Source of the DNA: Pectinatus frisingensis
Lineage (GTDB): Bacteria > Bacillota > Negativicutes > Selenomonadales > Selenomonadaceae
NCBI RefSeq assembly: GCF_015732285.1
Contig: NZ_WIQU01000065.1
Location: forward strand, 71,058-135,057
Reading direction: 5' to 3'
Length of the DNA stretch: 64,000 nt
Both the position numbers and the translations under genes were made by a program. The notes beneath the pieces are model-generated. The model made no database searches. It was not told where the DNA came from and saw nothing but the letters and a program-made list of their open reading frames with translations. Within the stretch, counting starts at the first letter, position 1, and the number at the start of each line of letters is the position of its first letter. This document shows, in pieces, positions 7,197 through 59,182 of this stretch.

Positions 7197-8935
7197 GCAT
7201 ATGCCTCCTCAGAAGAAAGCTGGGATAGGCAAATTTCACGATAAACAGGACATTGCTGCATGAGTTCGGCATGTTTTCCACATCCGGTTAAAGTTCCATC
7301 ATCAAACACTAATATTTTATCAGCATATTTTATTGAACTGGCTCGCTGCGACACTATAAATACTGTTGTGTTCTGATAATTCTTTCTTATTTCCGATCGT
7401 ACAGCAGCATCTGTAGCAAAATCAAGTGCACTCGTTGAATCATCAAGAATAAGTATTTCCGGATTACCTGCCAAAGCCCGGGCAATGGTCAGTCTTTGTT
7501 TCTGTCCACCAGAAAAATTCATTCCGCCTCGTTCTACCATAGTTTTCAACCCCAACGGCAATTCATCAATAAATTCTGCGGCTTGAGCTGTGCGAATGAT
7601 TTCAGACAATTTCTCATCCGTTATATTTTCATTGCCCCAGCGCAGGTTATCTTCAATAGTTCCTGTAAAAAGCACTGCTTTTTGCGGTACAATACCAAAT
7701 TTTTTACGCAATTTATATAATGGCCATTTACGTACATCACGGCCTTCAATAAAAATCTGCCCTTCAGAAACATCATAAAAACGCGGCAATAAATTAACAA
7801 ATGTGGATTTACCTGAACCGGTGCTGCCTATAATACCGACTGTTTCACCACATTTTATCGTCACATTTATATTGGATAAAGCCATATCACCTGTACTGCT
7901 ATATTTAAAAAACATATTCTTTATTTCAATAAAATCACAATTTTTGATTATTGAATCTTTTTCTGGTAACCCGTTATCCGTCTTTGGTAAAGATGATACT
8001 GCATCAAGAACCTGGCATACCCGTTTTGACGAAGCAAAAGCCTTAGTAAAAATCACCACTAAATTAGAAATAACAATCAACGCCAATAAAATCTGCGTAA
8101 CATAATTGGCAAACGCGATAATTTCACCCTTAGCCAGATTACCGGTATCAATATGATAACTTCCTATCCATAATATCAGTATTATTACCATATTCATAAC
8201 AAATGTTGTCAAAGGATTTAAAAGAGCTGAAACCTTACCGATGGAAAGAGCATTATCCATCAAGTCATCATTTGTTTTGTAAAACCTTTTTTTCTCTCGT
8301 TTGACATTGGAAAAAGCTCTTATTACCCGCACACCTGCTAAATTTTCTCTTATTACCGATGCTGTACGATCCAATTTTTTCTGATAAGAACTATAAAGAA
8401 CAGATGATTTTTTTACCACATAATAAAGAATTGCCGCAAATATGGGTGCTGCACCCCAAAGTAATAGAGATAATCGCAGATCCAGCAGCATCGACATTAC
8501 TATTGCACCAATGCAGATAAAAGGCGTTCTTACCACCAGCCTGATCATCATCGCCACTGCCAGCTGCAGTTGATTAATGTCATTGGTAATTCTATTTATC
8601 AACGATGCCGTACCAAATCCATCAATCTCGGCATTAGACAGTGATTGAATGTGATTGAACACCGTATTTCGCAGGGTAGTCCCAAACCCCTGCGAAGCAC
8701 GTGCAGCAAAATATTGACATACCATAGAACAGCAAAAACCCAAAACGGCCATTCCCAGCATCCATTCTCCCATATGAAGTACATATATAAGATCATGTTT
8801 GGCCACGCCATTATTTATAACAAACACCATCATTGTCGGCAGCATAAGTTCTAATATGGCTTCAAACAACTTGAAAATAGGACCCACAATACATTCCTTT
8901 TTATACGCTTTAAGAAAAACTGCCAATTTAAACAC
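7193..8935 (-). CDS. ABC exporter half-transporter with degenerate ATPase residues
   Basis: 580-residue partner of the downstream gene: membrane domain (about 15-310), then an ATP-binding domain with Walker A GSTGSGKST and signature NFSGGQKQ. Walker B reads LILDDSTSALD, so Asp replaces the catalytic Glu, and the switch residue is Gln (IVSQRASSI) instead of His. This is the asymmetry of heterodimeric exporters, in which one composite ATP site binds but does not turn over ATP. The start is GTG 8935 with AAGGA upstream. The LysR regulator at 9066 is divergently transcribed from 130 bp away and may control the pair. Confidence 0.9.
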   Translation of the reverse strand: MFKLAVFLKAYKKECIVGPIFKLFEAILELMLPTMMVFVINNGVAKHDLIYVLHMGEWMLGMAVLGFCCSMVCQYFAARASQGFGTTLRNTVFNHIQSLSNAEIDGFGTASLINRITNDINQLQLAVAMMIRLVVRTPFICIGAIVMSMLLDLRLSLLLWGAAPIFAAILYYVVKKSSVLYSSYQKKLDRTASVIRENLAGVRVIRAFSNVKREKKRFYKTNDDLMDNALSIGKVSALLNPLTTFVMNMVIILILWIGSYHIDTGNLAKGEIIAFANYVTQILLALIVISNLVVIFTKAFASSKRVCQVLDAVSSLPKTDNGLPEKDSIIKNCDFIEIKNMFFKYSSTGDMALSNINVTIKCGETVGIIGSTGSGKSTFVNLLPRFYDVSEGQIFIEGRDVRKWPLYKLRKKFGIVPQKAVLFTGTIEDNLRWGNENITDEKLSEIIRTAQAAEFIDELPLGLKTMVERGGMNFSGGQKQRLTIARALAGNPEILILDDSTSALDFATDAAVRSEIRKNYQNTTVFIVSQRASSIKYADKILVFDDGTLTGCGKHAELMQQCPVYREICLSQLSSEEAYA

Positions 8936-13256: not shown

Positions 13257-13276
13257 TAACCAGGAGAGTGTATAAA

Positions 13277-14512
13277 ATGACAAATTTTGATGCAGCAAAA
13301 GAAACTTATGGACAAATTGGTGTTGATGCAGACAAGGCTATAGATACTTTAAAAAAAGTACGCATATCCATGCACTGCTGGCAGGGAGATGATGTTCTCG
13401 GTTTTGATTCTACGCAACTTACCGGAGGAATATCAGCTACCGGTAATTATCCCGGCAGAGCCCGCAATCCTGAAGAATTAATGAGTGATATCAAAGAAGC
13501 TTTATCACTTATTCCCGGCAACCACAAACTAAATCTCCATGCTTCTTATGCCATAACTGACGAAAAAATTGATCGTGACAAATTAGAACCGAAGCATTTT
13601 GCAGCCTGGGTAGATTTTGCCAAAGAAAACCATCTTGGGCTGGATTTTAACCCCACATTATTTTCCCATCCTAAAGCATCTGACAATCTTACATTGTCAA
13701 ATCCTGACAAATCTATTCGTGATTTTTGGATAGAACATTGTAAAGCCAGCCGTAAAATTGCTGCATATTTTGGCAAAGAATTATCAATGCCGTCATTAAA
13801 CAATATCTGGATTCCTGATGGTTATAAAGACATACCGGCCGACAGAATGGGGCCACGCAGTCGTTTGAAAAATTCTTTAGATGAAATATTTAAACTTTAT
13901 TATGATGAAAAATATATGGTCGATAGTATTGAAGGTAAGGTATTTGGTATTGGTGTAGAATCCTATACTGTAGGTTCACATGAATTCTACATGAACTATG
14001 CTGCACAAAATAATAAAATTTGCCTGCTCGATACCGGTCATTTCCATCCTACTGAAACCGTATCCGATAAAATTTCCACAATGCTTCTCTTCAATAAATA
14101 CTTGGCTTTACATGTCAGCCGACCGGTACGCTGGGACAGTGACCACGTTATTTTATTTGATGACGAATTAAAAGAAATAGCTAAGGAATTAGTCCGCTGC
14201 GATGCTCTCGGCAGAACATTTATTGGCCTTGATTTCTTTGATGCCAGCATTAATCGTATCGCTGCCTGGGTCATAGGAATGCGCAACATAGAAAAAGCAC
14301 TTTTATTTGCTCTTTTAATGCCGCATAAAACTTTGAAAAAAATGCAGGATGAAAGTAATTTTACAGAACTTATGGCCTCAATGGAAGAAATCAAAACCTA
14401 TCCATTTGGTGATGTTTGGGATCATTATTGTAAAATACAAAATGTTCCCCAGAAAAAATCCTGGTTTAAAGAAATAAAACGTTACGAAAATGATATTCTT
14501 TCCCATCGCTGA
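13277..14512 (+). CDS. rhaA: L-rhamnose isomerase
   Basis: Metal-dependent aldose-ketose isomerase converting L-rhamnose to L-rhamnulose. 411 residues, close to the usual 420. Signature stretches include [12 protein letters not shown] near the N-terminus, [19 protein letters not shown] (metal-binding Asp and His) and [17 protein letters not shown] 13277 is chosen because AGGAGA lies 8 nt upstream; an upstream in-frame GTG at 13268 overlaps that ribosome binding site. Confidence 0.96.
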
Positions 14513-14545
14513 TCACTATACCACATATTAAAGAGGGAGCAACCT

Positions 14546-15364
14546 ATGCCTATTACAGATGCAAAATTTATACAAGATTTTATCCGCCTGACAGATGACG
14601 CTTTCAAAAAAGGCTGGCACGAAAGGAATGGCGGTAATCTCAGTTATCGAATAAAAAATGATGAAATAAATAAAATATTGCCTGAATTAAAATCAGCAAC
14701 CAATTGGCAGCCTATTGGCACCGAAGTTCCTAATATAGCAGGAGAATACTTTCTCGTTACCGGCAGTGGAAAATACATGAGAAATGTGATTTTATGCCCG
14801 GCTGATAATATAGCAATCATAAAAATAGATGATAAAGGAAAAAATTACAGTATTATTTGGGGATTGGAACATGGCGGCGTACCTACCAGTGAATTACCTA
14901 CACACCTTATGAACCATGGAATAAAAAAAACTGTAACTAATGATAAAAACAGAGTTATTTATCATGCACATCCGGTAAATGCCATCGCTTTGACTTTTAT
15001 TTTACCTTTGGATAGTAAAACATTTACCCATGAATTATGGGAAATGATGACAGAAGTACCTGTTATATTTCCCGAAGGTATAGGCGTGATTCCCTGGATG
15101 GTTCCCGGTGGAAAAGCCATAGCCGATATTACAGGCAAATTAATGAAAAAATATAATGCCGTAATTTGGGCACATCATGGTACATTTTGCGCCGGTAATA
15201 ATTTTGATGAAGCTTTCGGCTTTATGGATACAATAGAAAAAGCTTCTGAAATATCAGTTAAAGTACACTCTATGGGTGGAAAAAAACAAACTATCAGCAA
15301 CCAAAATTTTTGCGATTTAGCTGAAGCCTTTAAGATTCATCTCAATGAAAATTTTTTAAGTTAA
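14546..15364 (+). CDS. rhaD: Rhamnulose-1-phosphate aldolase
   Basis: Zinc-dependent class II aldolase that splits L-rhamnulose 1-phosphate into dihydroxyacetone phosphate and L-lactaldehyde. 272 residues, the usual length. RNGGNLSYRI near residue 30 binds phosphate; zinc ligands are visible in VIYHAHPVNAIAL and IWAHHGTFCAG, and the catalytic Glu region is GLEHGGVPTSELPTH. It is 33 nt after rhaA behind AGAGGGAG. No lactaldehyde reductase or dehydrogenase follows, so L-lactaldehyde must be handled by genes elsewhere. Confidence 0.95.
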   Translation: MPITDAKFIQDFIRLTDDAFKKGWHERNGGNLSYRIKNDEINKILPELKSATNWQPIGTEVPNIAGEYFLVTGSGKYMRNVILCPADNIAIIKIDDKGKNYSIIWGLEHGGVPTSELPTHLMNHGIKKTVTNDKNRVIYHAHPVNAIALTFILPLDSKTFTHELWEMMTEVPVIFPEGIGVIPWMVPGGKAIADITGKLMKKYNAVIWAHHGTFCAGNNFDEAFGFMDTIEKASEISVKVHSMGGKKQTISNQNFCDLAEAFKIHLNENFLS

Positions 15365-15378
15365 ACATTTAATAATAT

Positions 15379-15420
15379 TTATATGACTGTATCAAATAAT
15401 TTTTGCATACAGCCATATAA
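15379..15420 (+). other. Imperfect hairpin between rhaD and the MFS gene
   Basis: 14-nt arms (15379-15392 and 15407-15420) pair with one mismatch and a 14-nt loop. There is no T-run after it, so it is more likely an mRNA-stabilising element or weak attenuator within the operon than a full terminator. Confidence 0.5.
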
Positions 15421-15502
15421 ATAAATACAGCATTTATTAACTATTCTATTTTCATAATTTTAGTAAATATTAATAATTTCATAAAAGAAATGGGGATTAA
15501 TA

Positions 15503-16786
15503 ATGGACAATAAAGAACCCTCTGCCTGGAAAAAAACAATATTAGCTGCCATGACCAGCTATATTGATGCCGGTTCCATTGTTGCCGGAGCTGCCGGGTT
15601 AAGCTTATGGCAGGCCTATCTTGGTATGGATGGCTACCAGATGGGGCTTTTAGCAGCACTTTCTTCAAACGCTGGTTCTGCAGCAGTCGGTGCCTTAATC
15701 GGCGGAAGAATTTGTGATAAATACGGCAGAAAATTCGTCTATACCTACGATTTATTAATTTATATCATTGGTATGCTTCTCATAGTTTTCGGTATTAATT
15801 ATCCTATGTTGCTAATCGGATATGTTATCGTAGGACTTGGTGTAGGTGCCGATATAGTCGCTTCCTGGACCTTAATTGCGGAAGAAGCCCCAGCCAAAAA
15901 TCGGGCTAAGCACTGCGGTTCCGCTCAATTTGCCTGGGCCCTCGGTCCGGCAGTAGTCTTACTTATTTCAGCCTGGATAAATCAATATGGCATGATAGGC
16001 AGCCGAATCGTATTTGGTCATTTGATTATTGTCGCAGCCTGGGTATGGTATCAACGTCTAAAAATGCCGGAATCAAAAGACTGGCGTGCTGCCAAATTAG
16101 CCGAAGAAAAACTTCTTGCCGAAGGTAAAGTAGAAAAAATATCTTACTCCACGCTATTATCCGGTATAAATTTAAAAACTGTTTTATTTCTGTGCGGAGT
16201 GTATTCAGTATGGAATCTATGTGCCAGTACCTGGGGATTTTTCATGCCCTATATATATGAACATGTAGGTAATTTATCTAACAGTATGTCCCAACTAATG
16301 TCAGTCGGATCGTTTGTAATTTCATTTGTAGGTACTTATTTCATTTTTATGCAGTTAGGTGATAAAGTAAGCCGCCGTCTTTTATACACAATAATCGGCG
16401 GTATCTATGTCATTGGCTGGGGAGTATGGGTATTACCGCCAGATATGCTCAGCATGTGGATGCTCATTATGTTTACAATATTTGCCGGTATAAACAACGG
16501 TTCAGGACAGCAGGCTTTTTATCAATTGTGGTGTTCCGAACTTTTTCCTACCAAATATCGTGCCACAGCCCAGGGTTTAACTTTCTTCATCACCCGTATT
16601 GCAGCTGCCGTCTGGGGTTTTTGTGTACCTGTAATAATGAATTCTCTCGGCTTTAGATATGCAGCTATGCTTATGGTCGCTTTTGCTTTTATCAGCTGGC
16701 TGGTAGGTACTATATGGGCACCTGATACAAATGGTAAAACACTTAAACAGATTGAAATTGAACGCTATGGACATGAAGTACAATAA
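15503..16786 (+). CDS. MFS sugar transporter, probable L-rhamnose uptake permease
   Basis: 427-residue, 12-helix major facilitator of the sugar-porter type. Motif A between helices 2 and 3 is GGRICDKYGRKFVY, the equivalent loop in the C-terminal half is degenerate, and CSELFPTKYRATAQG (after helix 10) is typical of sugar/proton symporters. It lies between rhaD and rhaM in the same direction, with no other transporter in the operon, so L-rhamnose/proton symport is the natural inference. It is not homologous to the DMT-like RhaT. Start ATG 15503 behind GGGG. Confidence 0.82.
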   Translation: MDNKEPSAWKKTILAAMTSYIDAGSIVAGAAGLSLWQAYLGMDGYQMGLLAALSSNAGSAAVGALIGGRICDKYGRKFVYTYDLLIYIIGMLLIVFGINYPMLLIGYVIVGLGVGADIVASWTLIAEEAPAKNRAKHCGSAQFAWALGPAVVLLISAWINQYGMIGSRIVFGHLIIVAAWVWYQRLKMPESKDWRAAKLAEEKLLAEGKVEKISYSTLLSGINLKTVLFLCGVYSVWNLCASTWGFFMPYIYEHVGNLSNSMSQLMSVGSFVISFVGTYFIFMQLGDKVSRRLLYTIIGGIYVIGWGVWVLPPDMLSMWMLIMFTIFAGINNGSGQQAFYQLWCSELFPTKYRATAQGLTFFITRIAAAVWGFCVPVIMNSLGFRYAAMLMVAFAFISWLVGTIWAPDTNGKTLKQIEIERYGHEVQ

Positions 16787-16814
16787 CCTGTCATTAAAAA
16801 GGAAGTATATAAAA

Positions 16815-17132
16815 ATGGAACGATTTGCTTGGAAAGCCACAATAAAAAACGGTAAACTGGCAGAATACAAAAAACGCCACGCCAATATCTGGCCAGAAAT
16901 GAAACAAGTTTTAAAAGACGCAGGAATAAATAATTATACCATCTGGAATACCGGTAATGAAGTCTTTGGTTATTTTGAATGCGAAAAAGGTATCGCTTAT
17001 GCTGAAAAATATCAAGCTGACAGTCCAATTGTAGATAAATGGAATGAATATATGAAAGATGTAATGCTTATGGAAATGGACCCACAAACTGGAGCCCAGC
17101 CTAAGATGCAGCAAATATTTTTCCTTGCCTGA
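16815..17132 (+). CDS. rhaM: L-rhamnose mutarotase
   Basis: 105-residue ferredoxin-like-fold enzyme that interconverts the alpha and beta anomers of L-rhamnose, giving RhaA its preferred anomer. Characteristic segments are MERFAWKATIKNG, YKKRHANIWPEM (catalytic His region), NYTIWNTGNEVFGYFE and the C-terminal MQQIFFL. ATG 16815 follows GGAAG; the frame is open further upstream but overlaps the MFS gene. Last gene of the rha operon. Confidence 0.93.
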   Translation: MERFAWKATIKNGKLAEYKKRHANIWPEMKQVLKDAGINNYTIWNTGNEVFGYFECEKGIAYAEKYQADSPIVDKWNEYMKDVMLMEMDPQTGAQPKMQQIFFLA

Positions 17133-17173: not shown

Positions 17174-17215
17174 AAAACAACCTATCATTGCATCACCTTG
17201 ATAGGCTGTTTTTTA
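17174..17215 (+). terminator. Terminator of the rha operon
   Basis: Stem AACAACCTATCA / TGATAGGCTGTT (one mismatch) with an 11-nt loop, followed by a T-run. Confidence 0.85.
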
Positions 17216-17274
17216 TTTCATGCGATTTTCCCCTTATAATATAAAAGTCTGCCCAAATAACAGCTTTTATATTA

Positions 17275-17304
17275 AGTAAACCAGTTAATGTAAAACGGTT
17301 GACT
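17275..17304. promoter_or_regulatory. BirA (biotin repressor) operator candidate
   Basis: Inverted half sites AGTAAACC (17275-17282) and GGTTGACT (17297-17304) separated by 14 bp. This fits the bacterial BirA box pattern TTGTAAACC-N14/15-GGTTTACAA. The right half overlaps the -35 element of the promoter in front of an operon containing bioY, so biotin-dependent repression by a DNA-binding BirA is strongly suggested. birA itself is not in the window. Confidence 0.78.
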
Positions 17305-17327
17305 ATAATGTTTTTCACTCGTATAAT
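17299..17327 (+). promoter_or_regulatory. Promoter of the bioY operon
   Basis: -35 TTGACT (17299-17304), 17-nt spacer, -10 TATAAT (17322-17327). The -35 lies inside the right BirA half site. Confidence 0.8.
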
Positions 17328-17350
17328 AAATTTTTAAGGGAGGAATACGT

Positions 17351-17920
17351 ATGTTAATGGACTTAGCCAAACAACTTACTATATTGCAAGGAGAACAATA
17401 TAGTAATTCTTCTATAGCAAAACTGCATTGGCAATATGGAAAAAATAAATATAATGAAACTGGTCTTTCAATACTAAAAAAAAGACATCATTTCATAAAA
17501 ACCGCATGTACCATAACAAAAGAAAACATGCAGGCACGTTTAGAAACATCACTTATTTTACATCACATACCTCGAACAACTATATCGGATAATACTGACA
17601 TTCCTGTTACGGCTATATTCTGGCGAATTTTTTCACTAACAGATATAGCTGATTTTATCCAAAATGTCGGCGACAAAAATCCTATACATAAAGGATCCAA
17701 TGCTATTATCCCTGGTATATTATTATTATCAGAAGTATTAAATACAGTAATGGATTCTAAAGAAATTATCATGCGGTTTAATAATGCAGCTTTAGCCGGT
17801 CAGCCGCTTTATTGGAACCAATTAAATAAAAATCAGGCGGAAGTATACTCAAAAAAAGGGAAAGTTTTTAATTTAATAATAGGTAAACCAGTAAAAAACA
17901 GGAGAGACATTAATGGATAA
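17351..17920 (+). CDS. MaoC-like hot-dog protein in a BirA-controlled operon
   Basis: 189-residue protein of uncertain exact activity. Residues about 103-124 read FIQNVGDKNPIHKGSNAIIPG, which fits the (R)-enoyl hydratase motif GDxNPxH with the catalytic Asp and His kept, followed by the usual PG turn. The N-terminal 95 residues are not recognised and may be a degenerate first hot-dog. It would hydrate or dehydrate an acyl-CoA or acyl-ACP. It is first in an operon with bioY, a thiolase and an acyl-AMP ligase, overlaps bioY by 8 nt and starts 24 nt after the -10 box behind GGGAGG. A role in making a biotin precursor (pimeloyl unit) is an inference from context. Confidence 0.7.
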   Translation: MLMDLAKQLTILQGEQYSNSSIAKLHWQYGKNKYNETGLSILKKRHHFIKTACTITKENMQARLETSLILHHIPRTTISDNTDIPVTAIFWRIFSLTDIADFIQNVGDKNPIHKGSNAIIPGILLLSEVLNTVMDSKEIIMRFNNAALAGQPLYWNQLNKNQAEVYSKKGKVFNLIIGKPVKNRRDING

Positions 17921-18461
17921 AATGACATTATTTTCTATAAGAAACTTAACAAAAATGGCAGTATGTATTGCACTATGCTGTGTATCAGCATATATCTCTT
18001 TTCCATTGCCTTTTACACCTGGTATGGTTACGGCACTTACATTGGTCATGAATTTAACGGCTTTCCTGTTGTCGCCAAAACAAACATTTATTGTCATTTT
18101 AGGATATATTTTACTTGGAATTGTAGGACTGCCCGTCTTCGTTGGTGGTACGGCTGGTCTAGGAAAAATTTTAGGACCAACAGGCGGTTTTATTATAGCA
18201 TTTGCTGTTGCATATCCAATAGTCAGTTTATTAAAAGGCAATCTAATTTCATTGCGGCGTTATTTTTTTATTGCGGTATGTGTTGGAATTCCTATCACTT
18301 ATATCGGTGGAGTTGTAGGGATGATTCTTTCTTTGCATATCAATATCTGGCAGGCACTTATCATGGCGGTATTTCCATTTATTCCTGGTGATATCATAAA
18401 ATCTTTTGCTGCTGCATGGATTGGTGTAAAACTCAACAGAATATTCAATCAGGACCGTTAA
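17913..18461 (+). CDS. bioY: Biotin transporter BioY (ECF S component)
   Basis: 182-residue membrane protein with about six hydrophobic helices. BioY signatures are ISFPLPFTPGMVTALTL near residue 28, GLPVFVGGTAGLGKILGPTGG at about 70-90 and IPGDIIKSFAAAWIG near the C-terminus. It captures biotin and works alone or with the EcfA/T module, which is not encoded nearby. The start overlaps the upstream gene by 8 nt with GGAGAG as ribosome binding site. It ends 1 nt before the thiolase start, so translation of the three is probably coupled. Confidence 0.93.
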   Translation: MDKMTLFSIRNLTKMAVCIALCCVSAYISFPLPFTPGMVTALTLVMNLTAFLLSPKQTFIVILGYILLGIVGLPVFVGGTAGLGKILGPTGGFIIAFAVAYPIVSLLKGNLISLRRYFFIAVCVGIPITYIGGVVGMILSLHINIWQALIMAVFPFIPGDIIKSFAAAWIGVKLNRIFNQDR

Positions 18462-18462
18462 A

Positions 18463-19608
18463 ATGGAACCTGTATACATATTAGGCGGCCTTCGTACCCC
18501 TATAGTAGTTAAAAATGGAAAATTCCGCAATATACGACCGGAATATTTTGGTGCAAAAGTATTGCAAAAATTAATTGAAAAATATCGACTTAAAAATATT
18601 GATGGTATATTTGCTGGTAATGCAGTAGGTACTGGCGGCAATATAGCACGTCTCATGTCTTTGGAAGCTGGAATTTCTGATACTGTGCCGGCCTGTACAA
18701 TTGATATGCAATGTGCTTCTGCTGCTGCTGCAATAGATATAGCCCGAACAAAAATTGCCTGTAAGAGCGGAGACTTATTTTTAGCCGGTGGCATGGAAAG
18801 TTCATCATTACAGCCATTGCGAATTTATGATACAAAAGATGACCGTTATATGCAAATACCAGGCGGTTGTTATAAAACTGCCCAATTTTCACCAGACGAA
18901 CTTTCGCCCACAGCCATGCTGCAAGGAGCAGAAAGAATAATAAAAGTTGAACAAATAAAAAAAACTGAGCTTGACTATTGGGTGCTTAAAAGCCATCAAC
19001 GTGCCTGTCTGGCACGCGACAAAAAATTACTGGAATCCTATATCGTGCCCATTAATGGTTGGTCAATAGACAATGGTCTGCATGACAAAATGGATCAGCG
19101 GTTACTAAATCGACTGCCGCCTGTTTTAGGACCTGGTACATCAATAACAGCGGCAAATACCTGTCGCACTAATGATGGAGCGGCTTTTATCGTTCTATGT
19201 TCTGAAAATTATTGTAAAAAAAATAATATCAAACCAAAATTTCGTCTTTTAGATGCTCTGGAGAAAGCCGGACCTCCAAAAGAAAGCCCTCGTGGAGCTA
19301 TGCGGGCTGCTGACGCACTCTTAGACTGTAACAATTTATCTTACTATGACATGGATTCCATCGAATTCAATGAAGCCTTTGCCGTCATTGACGTATTATT
19401 TGCCCGACGTTTTCCAAAACTTACCGAACACTATAATCAATTAGGCGGGGCTTTAGCTTATGGACATCCCTATGGGGCATCAGGTGCAATACTGGCATTA
19501 CACTTAATGCGCAGCCTGTGTATATCACAAGGAAAATATGGACTTGCCGCTATAGCGGGTGCAGGCGGTATGGGGGCAGCTTTTTTAATAGAACAATGCA
19601 GGAGATAA
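18463..19608 (+). CDS. Thiolase-family protein lacking the second catalytic Cys
   Basis: 381-residue thiolase fold. The nucleophilic Cys is present (CTIDMQCASAAAA, about residue 84), as are NEAF and the catalytic His in GHPYGASG (about 334). The C-terminal motif, normally CxGGGxG, reads AIAGAGGMG here, so Ala stands in place of the base Cys needed for normal Claisen chemistry. It may therefore use a different acceptor, work by decarboxylation, or be a non-catalytic acyl carrier. In Bacillus subtilis the BirA-regulated yhfUTS genes pair BioY with a thiolase (YhfS) and an acyl ligase (YhfT), the same trio as here. Probable involvement in a biotin or fatty-acid precursor pathway. Confidence 0.8.
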   Translation: MEPVYILGGLRTPIVVKNGKFRNIRPEYFGAKVLQKLIEKYRLKNIDGIFAGNAVGTGGNIARLMSLEAGISDTVPACTIDMQCASAAAAIDIARTKIACKSGDLFLAGGMESSSLQPLRIYDTKDDRYMQIPGGCYKTAQFSPDELSPTAMLQGAERIIKVEQIKKTELDYWVLKSHQRACLARDKKLLESYIVPINGWSIDNGLHDKMDQRLLNRLPPVLGPGTSITAANTCRTNDGAAFIVLCSENYCKKNNIKPKFRLLDALEKAGPPKESPRGAMRAADALLDCNNLSYYDMDSIEFNEAFAVIDVLFARRFPKLTEHYNQLGGALAYGHPYGASGAILALHLMRSLCISQGKYGLAAIAGAGGMGAAFLIEQCRR

Positions 19609-19610
19609 GA

Positions 19611-20936
19611 ATGGATTATTACCAACTTCTAGTACAAAAAAACATAAATCATCCAACGGATATTTTTATCCAGATCGACAACAAAAGTTACACTTATGGA
19701 CAAATAAAACAACAATCAGATACTTTATTTCAACAAATAAAATCCACAGGACTAAAATCTGGCAGCCGTCTGCTCATTTCTTCGCAAAATTTCTATCAGC
19801 AGGTAATTTCTTTCTTTGCAGTGCAGGCAGCAGGATATATACCTATATTACTGCACAAAGGCTTATCATCATCAGAAATACAAGGAATTATAAATAAAAA
19901 TCATCTACAGGGGATTTTACAATTTGGCTCAAAAGGATTAGAAAAAAATTTCCAAATATTTGATAATATCATTCCAAAAATTGATTGTTGCCTCGGTGTA
20001 TTAAGCTCTGGTTCTAGCGGATTACCTAAGGTAATGTATAGGACATATGCAAGCTGGGCTGATTTTTTCCCAATTCAAAATATCATTTTTAAAGTAAAAA
20101 AAAACAGCCGTGTTTTTCTGCAAGGCAGCCTTAGTTTTACAGGAAACCTGAATACTTTCTTATCAGTTTTATATGAAGGCGGGCAAATAATTACCAGCAA
20201 TTTTATTCATTGTCGCAGTTGGCTTCAACTTATTTCAGACAGTAAAGTGAGTATATTATACCTTGTTCCCAGCAAATTACGCTTATTGTTACAGGTTTGT
20301 AAAAAGGAAATTGTAACCGTAAATTTAATATTTACCGGTTCTCAATTATTAGATAAAAAAGATTTATACAATTTACATCAGTATTTTACTAATGCCCAAA
20401 TTATTCTTTATTATGGAGCAAGTGAGCTCAATTATATCACCTATACAGAATGCCGCAGTTTAGATAGAGATTCCCGCAATCTTGGCCGACCATTTCCAGG
20501 TGTGGAAATTTACACTAAAAACAATATTATCTATGTCAATACGAAATATCACGTAACTGGTTTAAAAATGCCATATACTGTAAATGATCTTGGTTATCTT
20601 AATAAAAACGGAGAACTGATATTTCAAGGACGCCGACAAAATTGGATTAATAAGGGTGGTTTCAAAATCAGCTGTATCAAGATTCAGTTGAATCTGCGCA
20701 AAATCTCCGGAATAAAAGACGCAGTTGTCCTGCCATATAAAGACTCATTACGTGGTGCCGAACTGGCGGCATTCATTATCCCCCGGAAAAACATAAATAA
20801 AAATCACATACGCCAATATATACAGAAAAATTTTAATCCTGTAGAGGTTCCGGGAAAAATATATTTTTTAGAAAAAATTCCTCTAAATGATCGCGGAAAG
20901 CTTGATAAATCAGCTTTACAATCGATGCTTTCATGA
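19611..20936 (+). CDS. Acyl-CoA/acyl-AMP ligase (ANL superfamily), YhfT-like
   Basis: 441-residue adenylate-forming enzyme that activates a carboxylic acid with ATP, usually passing it to CoA. Motifs in order: SSGSSGLPKVMYRTY (phosphate loop, about 135-149), YYGASELNYIT (adenine/Mg region, about 268-278), and the C-terminal hinge and catalytic Lys region PLNDRGKLDKSAL. It is shorter than typical acyl-CoA ligases (500+), close to MenE-type enzymes. ATG 19611 is chosen over the open upstream frame because AGGAGA precedes it and it clears the thiolase stop by 2 nt. Last gene of the BirA-box operon; a pimelate-like substrate is speculation from context. Confidence 0.82.
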   Translation: MDYYQLLVQKNINHPTDIFIQIDNKSYTYGQIKQQSDTLFQQIKSTGLKSGSRLLISSQNFYQQVISFFAVQAAGYIPILLHKGLSSSEIQGIINKNHLQGILQFGSKGLEKNFQIFDNIIPKIDCCLGVLSSGSSGLPKVMYRTYASWADFFPIQNIIFKVKKNSRVFLQGSLSFTGNLNTFLSVLYEGGQIITSNFIHCRSWLQLISDSKVSILYLVPSKLRLLLQVCKKEIVTVNLIFTGSQLLDKKDLYNLHQYFTNAQIILYYGASELNYITYTECRSLDRDSRNLGRPFPGVEIYTKNNIIYVNTKYHVTGLKMPYTVNDLGYLNKNGELIFQGRRQNWINKGGFKISCIKIQLNLRKISGIKDAVVLPYKDSLRGAELAAFIIPRKNINKNHIRQYIQKNFNPVEVPGKIYFLEKIPLNDRGKLDKSALQSMLS

Positions 20937-52839: not shown

Positions 52840-52865
52840 ATGCACATATCAGCAATTTAATATTG

Positions 52866-52968
52866 CAGTACAGGACTGACGGATAATGTGGAATAGACCA
52901 CATGGACTGTATTGTAGTTTAAGCCGACCGTCTGGGCAAGAGAATTATTATGCCTGGGCGGTTTTTTG
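52866..52968 (+). promoter_or_regulatory. ZTP (pfl) riboswitch with terminator
   Basis: The 5' helix GTACAG/CTGTAT encloses ACTGACGG and a hairpin GTGG/CCAC; downstream is the hallmark GCCGACCGTCTGGGC (52923-52937). GACGG can pair with CCGTC as the family pseudoknot. CCGTCTGGGC also pairs with GCCTGGGCGG to form a terminator ending in TTTTTT (to 52967), the usual expression platform. Ligand ZMP/ZTP signals 10-formyl-THF shortage and would turn on the OFA transporter downstream. Confidence 0.88.
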
Positions 52969-59056: not shown

Positions 59057-59078
59057 ATACTTGTTAGTAAGTCGAAAA

Positions 59079-59164
59079 GCTCCCTCCGCAGGCATTATCC
59101 CGATCAGGTAAAAGGTCAGGTACTAACAGTCCTTTCTCAGCCACTTGCATAGAGGCTCCCTTGC
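59079..59164 (-). promoter_or_regulatory. TPP riboswitch (THI element)
   Basis: On the minus strand: AAGGGAGC..., GGCTGAGA, then ACCTGATCGGGATAATGCC and TGCGGAGGGAGC, matching the conserved THI-box halves (CUGAGA; ACCUGAUCUGGAUAAUGCCAGCGGAGGGA). It precedes thiSGHE, giving thiamine pyrophosphate feedback. Confidence 0.95.
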
Positions 59165-59182
59165 TGATATTCTATTAGGATC

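Follow-up and report, generated by a model that had tools for sequence, protein, structure and literature searches.

A four-gene operon of Pectinatus frisingensis, located in a window of 64,000 nucleotides (the whole stretch of DNA analysed), may be a BirA-controlled salvage module that restores the side chain of biotin, starting from imported, chain-shortened biotin (bisnorbiotin), a reading whose probability we put at roughly one half. Biotin shortage would lift BirA repression and switch the module on, BioY would bring in a biotin-like acid, and an AMP-forming ligase would turn it into a thioester. A thiolase-fold enzyme that has the Cys-His-Asn set and lacks the deprotonating Cys would then add two carbons, the likely donor being malonyl-CoA/ACP through decarboxylation. 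Reduction of the 3-keto group would give an (R)-3-hydroxyacyl thioester, which the hot-dog protein HD would dehydrate before a second reduction acts on the enoyl group. For both reductions this genome would rely on enzymes of fatty-acid synthesis, and in some Bacilli the reductases are predicted to be operon-encoded. Bisnorbiotin, whose side chain is two carbons short, would most likely be what is converted to biotin, because expression appears to be biotin-controlled, BioY is the transporter, and genomes that lack bioF and bioB still keep the module.

Bisnorbiotin is a beta-oxidation catabolite of biotin. In human serum the two are about equally abundant (21-591 pmol/l bisnorbiotin versus 140-356 pmol/l biotin; PMC9106636), and a search of the literature for bacterial use of bisnorbiotin found no salvage pathway. 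The wider claim, that an unassigned but widespread vitamin-salvage pathway of gut, rumen and other Bacillota converts bisnorbiotin to biotin in one reductive C2-elongation cycle dedicated to this task and under BirA control, is put forward a little more tentatively. If true, it would tell us what the BirA-regulated yhfST genes do and would set thiolases lacking Cys378 apart as a new, decarboxylative class of condensing enzyme. Gut and clinical bacteria would then have one more vitamer in their biotin economy, genome-based prediction of biotin auxotrophy would change, and the finding would bear on drugs against biotin metabolism.

Operon layout and BirA-type operator

All features lie on the forward strand. 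The upstream gene ends in an intrinsic-terminator-like hairpin and T-run (17181..17216, CCTATCA...TGATAGG), after which come a predicted BirA-type operator, a 9-14-9 palindrome of the kind also found at homologous operons (17274..17305), and a sigma-70-type promoter (17299..17327, TTGACT-17-TATAAT). The -35 element, TTGACT at 17299-17304, falls within the right half-site of the palindrome; a 17-bp spacer separates it from the -10 element TATAAT at 17322-17327, and the ribosome-binding site is GGGAGG. The coordinates bear out the first-pass annotation's description of four tightly packed genes: HD (17351..17920, 189 aa) overlaps BioY, the ECF S-component (17913..18461, 108 bits), by 8 nt, and gaps of 1 and 2 nt precede the thiolase-fold condensing enzyme (18463..19608) and the AMP-forming, YhfT-like acyl ligase (19611..20936). 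The last two are clear in Pfam, and the ligase has a P-loop and a C-terminal Lys motif; a GTG start for it at 19518 found no support from homologues, which begin MNYYxLL.

Against the BirA-type operator pattern used, TTGTNAACC-N14-16-GGTTNACAA at a promoter, the window promoter offers AAGTAAACC-N14-GGTTGACTA over its -35. Thus the box that had been noted here, and its overlap with the -35, hold up, but the term "near-consensus" was generous, as several outer positions deviate from TTGTNAACC. One box of this score occurs in the window, where first-order random sequence would be expected to give 0.05 per 64 kb. For the bare core AACC-N14-16-GGTT the count in the window does not exceed chance (3 found versus 2.2 expected), so that support for the box comes from its full half-sites, its position and its conservation upstream of homologous operons. 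Within an ABC exporter gene, at position 8277, there is a BirA-like site scoring 17.6, which was taken as chance.

The same genome encodes a 324-aa BirA with a ligase part and an N-terminal helix-turn-helix; the helix-turn-helix scores 58.6 bits with TIGR00122, below the curated cut-off of 70, as do nearly all BirA proteins of the relatives. BirA boxes also precede bioWF, bioB, bioYDA and bioY2 in this genome. Upstream of the homologous operons, a box above the 99% level of shuffles is present in 43 of 84, among them operons of C. difficile, Clostridium, Veillonella and Propionispira; no clear box was found at Quinella-type MAG operons, which are without BioY, or at those of Mitsuokella. Judged from these sequences, BirA control of the window operon is supported.

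A co-conserved gene set related to yhfUTS

HD, BioY, thiolase and ligase are conserved as a set in Negativicutes and some Clostridia, usually accompanied by a BirA box. Gene order varies (BioY-Lig-HD-Thl in Anaerovibrio), but the four families stand together in many genera, and HD and the thiolase co-occur (14 of 15 genomes each, p 1e-11), with HD unlinked in two. HD is not universal: in C. difficile and several others the operon has no dehydratase.

As had been proposed, the operon is akin to the yhfU-yhfT-yhfS genes of the Bacillus/Staphylococcus BirA regulon. The three core families, the BioY linkage and BirA control are shared, with BioY, ligase and thiolase closely spaced on one strand behind a BirA box, whereas the window operon adds a MaoC-type dehydratase and differs in gene order. 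The best equivalog-type matches of the window thiolase and ligase are PRK06690 and PRK07638, which we take to be YhfS and YhfT, although neither window protein comes near its equivalog cut-off (232 versus 498 and 128 versus 518, respectively). Two Bacilli relatives above the cut-offs, L240 and L254, sit in the same group of thiolases lacking Cys378. The BirA-controlled yhfTS genes are fatty-acid genes by annotation only (PMC6391492, PMC11089781), and it is the annotated role of yhfST in fatty-acid elongation that implies a fatty-acid reading.

Active sites and the proposed elongation cycle

The window thiolase retains Cys84, Asn303 and His335, which are invariant among 107 homologues, and has Ala365 in place of the second catalytic Cys. 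In thiolases the latter is the residue that deprotonates acetyl-CoA. At this position (Zoogloea Cys378) none of the 107 homologues has Cys, the residue being Ala or Gly and once Pro, while the equivalent of Ser247 is nearly always Cys in operon-type thiolases, as it is in the window enzyme (Cys234). Ala/Gly plus Cys is found in 39 operon-type thiolases, and Cys plus Ser in all 17 comparison thiolases from outside such operons. One split in the tree (support 100/100) separates the two sets, and the operon-type enzymes form one group (100/100) with the Bacilli YhfS-type enzymes. With biosynthetic thiolase (thiolase II) the operon enzyme shares the fold, the Cys nucleophile, the NEAF Asn and the GHP His; unlike thiolase II, it lacks Cys378, has Cys for Ser247 and carries a YGHPYG motif. 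A search of plasmids for YhfS relatives returned only thiolases about 35% identical. Because the acetyl-CoA-deprotonating Cys is missing, a malonyl-free reverse beta-oxidation is disfavoured.

By fold and motif, HD is predicted to be a compact double hot-dog of the MaoC/hydratase-2 type. It did not reach the gathering score of Pfam MaoC, but as a profile it matches HTD2 (3ir3, E 1e-6) and PhaJ (1iq6, E 1e-5), and its AF2 model (pLDDT 90) matches HtdX/hydratase-2 with Z 15.4. The motif GDxNxIH (Asp108, Asn110, His113) keeps the Asp and His of the hydratase 2 motif GDxNPxH. HD thus shares fold (Z 13-15), motif and catalytic Asp and His with HTD2, PhaJ, HtdX and MFE-2, but differs from them in its length of only 189 aa, its invisibility to Pfam MaoC and its identity of 10-14%. 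In Bacilli operons the two hot-dog halves are encoded as separate genes (HDa, HDb). Sporomusaceae-type operons have a FabZ-like hot-dog protein without the catalytic His, a loss that weakens the idea that in type II operons dehydration falls to a FabZ-like protein in place of HD.

The window operon encodes activation, condensation and dehydration only, and a dedicated ketoreductase or enoyl reductase was not found in the Negativicutes operons. Four Bacilli operons (L186, L221, L222, L223) add both, in the order Lig-Thl-HDa-HDb-FabG-like KR-EcfA-EcfA'-EcfT-FabK-like ER, with BioY in front in three; consensus BirA boxes occur at two of the four, one of them beside a divergent birA. On their sequences these operons encode a complete reductive C2-elongation cycle, and they supply the steps that were missing when activation, condensation and hydration were first suggested to form one acyl-chain route. 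Other Bacilli have subsets (KR at 11, dehydratase at 12 and FabK at 7 of 24 loci). The FabK-type reductase suggests that the cycle runs towards elongation.

Candidate substrates

The main rival to salvage, and an unlikely one, is fatty-acid handling in biotin starvation: as acetyl-CoA carboxylase fails, exogenous fatty acids would be activated and extended, sparing biotin. The predicted BirA control would suit it, the ligase is annotated as fatty-acid-ligase-like, and BirA of S. aureus is described as a regulator of fatty acid elongation that acts by way of yhfST (PMC6391492). A bypass of malonyl-CoA, however, needs a Claisen condensation of acetyl-CoA, for which the required Cys is missing in every member; dedicated ketoreductase, dehydratase and enoyl reductase would be redundant with fatty-acid synthesis for ordinary chains; and operon linkage with BioY and with an entire ECF module suggests that the substrate is BioY cargo. 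The window BioY keeps the FIPGDxxK stretch of L. lactis BioY (4dve). Against bisnorbiotin salvage, desthiobiotin does not compete with biotin uptake by Chlamydia BioY (PMC3459881), and so BioY can be narrow. Also counting against it are the operons that have no dehydratase or only a FabZ-like protein without its catalytic His, the lack of a dedicated ketoreductase and enoyl reductase in Negativicutes, and the homologous operons with no clear box.

Similarly improbable is that the module handles some other biotin-like acid, be it another vitamer or an analogue, or that it shortens chains oxidatively in place of elongating them. In three Bacilli clusters the same ligase and thiolase adjoin an acyl-CoA-dehydrogenase-family gene, an adenine-deaminase-like (amidohydrolase) gene, glycosyltransferases and an efflux pump, which counts against bisnorbiotin salvage as well and suggests that the module can have other uses or work in reverse. 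Repression by biotin, in contrast, fits acquisition rather than degradation, and the FabK-type reductase and the loss of the second Cys would seem to fit neither thiolysis nor oxidation.

The first-pass annotation had favoured making or salvaging a pimeloyl thioester, for instance by activation of glutarate and C2 extension in a BioZ-like manner. Glutaryl plus C2 does equal a pimeloyl chain, the operon is predicted to be biotin-repressed, and most type II operons come from genomes that have bioF (19 of 21, though these share ancestry). This reading is nevertheless very improbable. The genome already has a complete, BirA-boxed BioW-type route (a BioW-BioF fusion, BioA, BioD and BioB). Moreover, bioF is missing in 42 of 84 thiolase-bearing relatives and both bioF and bioB in 7, so that these carriers could make no use of a pimeloyl product and the module is unlikely to act upstream of BioF/BioB; among the 45 genomes behind named loci, 30, C. 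difficile included, are without bioF. To our knowledge, BioY is not a dicarboxylate transporter. Of the two findings that together were to count against a pimeloyl role, a complete pathway elsewhere was found but an absence of co-conservation was not, the four-gene set recurring in many genera. If it elongates, the operon resembles the BioZ pathway, in which a KAS III-like enzyme takes glutaryl to pimeloyl, in performing a single biotin-related C2 extension, but its condensing enzyme belongs to another family, and window-type operons are BioY-linked and persist without bioF/bioB.

Operon architecture and the BirA regulon

The operon begins with a BirA-type palindrome (17274-17305) that, as read from the sequence, overlaps the -35 element of a TTGACT-17-TATAAT promoter. 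Four tightly packed genes follow: HD, a hydratase-2-type hot-dog protein (17351-17920), BioY (17913-18461, overlapping HD by 8 nt), the thiolase-fold protein Thl (18463-19608, after a 1-nt gap) and the AMP-forming ligase Lig (19611-20936, after a 2-nt gap). A box of this quality occurs once in the window, against 0.05 expected per 64 kb of first-order random sequence; the frequency of its short core, taken alone, is not significant there. The upstream genes at 13268-17132, read as rhamnose isomerase, rhamnulose-phosphate aldolase, sugar transporter and mutarotase-like genes, are apparently unrelated to the operon. Rfam also identifies ZMP/ZTP (52862-52944, plus strand) and TPP (59064-59172, minus strand) riboswitch aptamers in the window.

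The window's genome encodes a 657-aa BioW-BioF fusion (BioW, 268 bits, Pfam; BioF, 438 bits, above the curated cut-off) as well as BioD, BioA and BioB, which already gives it a route from pimelate to biotin. Frames of similar length occur in many Selenomonadaceae. The fusion gene (genome G000, contig C60, near 351953-353900; locus L149, 5936-7906) lies behind a perfect BirA palindrome, TTGTCAACT-14-AGTTGACAA; further boxes precede bioB, bioY-bioD-bioA, a solitary bioY and the HD-BioY-Thl-Lig operon, and the genome's BirA has a helix-turn-helix. Six sites score at least 15.5 in the 125 kb examined, five being the boxes at biotin loci and the sixth lying within an ABC exporter gene. The operon is a fifth, separate BirA-box target beside the other biotin loci. 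The genome has three BioY genes. Operon BioY keeps FIPGDIIK, corresponding to FIPGDCIK in 4dve; the BioY adjoining bioD-bioA (L019, 8101-8664) is without the Lys of this common PGDxxK stretch, and by its sequence may transport a different vitamer.

Conservation and a complete gene set for the proposed elongation cycle

In the single-protein search, 15 of the 60 relatives had HD; these proteins were 25-32% identical to that of the window and almost always encoded next to BioY, Thl and Lig. Among the 60, HD occurs in 15 genomes and Thl in 15, with 14 in common (Fisher p 1e-11), a count that includes two genomes with HD unlinked from the operon. One orphan HD gene (L027, 8995-9552, genome G009) lies a few genes from rnc-fabF-fabK-like genes, and G009 carries BioY-Thl-Lig at another place. 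A GTDB scan with a thiolase profile gave 80 loci, in Selenomonadaceae, Veillonella, Propionispira, Phascolarctobacterium, Clostridium and Clostridioides difficile. The orders HD-BioY-Thl-Lig and BioY-Lig-HD-Thl were seen, as were BioY-Thl-Lig without HD in C. difficile and HD-Thl-Lig without BioY in Quinella-type MAGs. All four other species tested in the window's own genus carry a type II operon, BioY-Thl-Lig; at the three loci read (L162-L164) it stands in place of the window-type (type I) operon, and the next gene encodes a FabZ-like hot-dog in which the catalytic His has been lost, an arrangement also found in class relatives outside the family. Of 84 homologous operons, 43 have an upstream BirA box that scores above the 99% level of shuffles, and the GGTTGACNA typical of these boxes puts the -35 inside the operator.

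In the class to which genome G266 belongs, read here as Bacilli, four genomes have Lig-Thl-HDa-HDb-KR-EcfA-EcfA'-EcfT-ER as a single run, with BioY in front in three. The dehydratase here is of the hydratase-2/FAS1 type and split in two, HDa being its N-half and HDb its C-half; the ketoreductase (KR) is FabG-like, the enoyl reductase (ER) FabK-like and EcfT of the CbiQ family. Two of the four have consensus operators, TTGTAAACC-15-GGTTAACAA and TTGTAAACC-14-GGTTTACAA; in the second case the operator separates the operon from a divergent birA. Partial sets elsewhere in Bacilli include BioY-FabK-Thl-Lig, BioY-Thl-Lig-KR and BioY-Lig-Thl-HDa-HDb; the 24 Bacilli loci comprise 24 with ligase, 16 with BioY, 11 with KR, 12 with some dehydratase, and 7 each with FabK and the ECF module. 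Some members score above the NCBI equivalog cut-offs for PRK06690/PRK07638, and the gene set is thereby linked to yhfTS, which the literature describes as BirA-regulated. Two small ORFs stand behind Lig-Thl at L238, L239, L257 and L259, in genomes Staphylococcus-like by their neighbouring genes, and the HD profile matches the second of them weakly; from their sequences the two ORFs look like the halves of the dehydratase, and the yhfT-yhfS literature found makes no mention of them.

Active sites of the operon enzymes

HD has no match to Pfam MaoC. A profile built from 13 HD relatives retrieves human HTD2 (1e-6) and PhaJ (1e-5), and their catalytic motif lines up with that of HD; Asp108, Asn110 and His113 are invariant. 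According to the AF2 model (pLDDT 90, pTM 0.86), HD folds as a compact double hot-dog; the best structural match of the model is HtdX (Z 15.4), along with hydratase-2 enzymes. In Lig the standard adenylation motifs are present, the C-terminal Lys among them.

Window Thl retains Cys84, Asn303 and His335 and has Ala at the second catalytic Cys position (Zoogloea Cys378). This Cys is present in none of 107 homologues (101 type I, 6 type II), which have Ala (100), Gly (6) or Pro (1), and the Ser247-equivalent is Cys in 105. In a 56-protein tree, 39 operon-type proteins (Ala/Gly plus Cys) separate from 17 comparison thiolases (Cys plus Ser) on a single branch (100/100 support). Because the acetyl-deprotonating Cys is lost but Cys-His-Asn is kept, the pattern suggests that Thl may condense by decarboxylation, in the manner of a ketoacyl synthase.

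Proposed substrate and product

The first-pass annotation suggested, as one example, that the operon makes or salvages a pimeloyl thioester, a proposal that gene distribution does not support. Thl occurs in 84 of 200 relatives, of which 42 have bioF and 42 do not; seven lack both bioF and bioB, four of these being at least 99% complete. Of the 45 genomes behind named loci, 30 are without bioF, and bioB was not detected in seven, one of them a 1.3-Mb partial genome; in C. difficile bioF is absent and bioB stands alone. To such carriers a pimeloyl thioester would be useless, whereas biotin itself would still serve them. In view of the biotin repressor's box, the link to BioY and retention without bioF and bioB, biotin would be the simplest product, and the putative substrate, two carbons shorter, would be bisnorbiotin. 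BioY would import this acid, Lig activate it and Thl add a C2 unit, with ketoreduction by a borrowed or operon-encoded FabG-like enzyme, dehydration by HD and enoyl reduction by a FabK-like enzyme, again borrowed or operon-encoded. Malonyl-CoA could suffice as donor even under biotin limitation, since the need for biotin is only nanomolar.

Bisnorbiotin is a main mammalian catabolite, at 21-591 pmol/l in serum versus 140-356 for biotin (PMC9106636), and is bound by avidin (PMC10670868); our literature searches on it found no bacterial salvage route assigned to it. Against bisnorbiotin as substrate, BioY selectivity may exclude it, because desthiobiotin gives no competition at Chlamydia BioY (PMC3459881). 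Possibly, too, Lig and Thl serve a biotin-analogue pathway in three unexplained Bacilli clusters (L225, L226, L228). These have BioY-EcfA-A'-T, an adenine-deaminase-like amidohydrolase and operon-type Lig, Thl and KR, and further on two glycosyltransferases, a sugar-efflux MFS protein and an acyl-CoA dehydrogenase-family gene whose nearest relative is acryloyl-CoA reductase.
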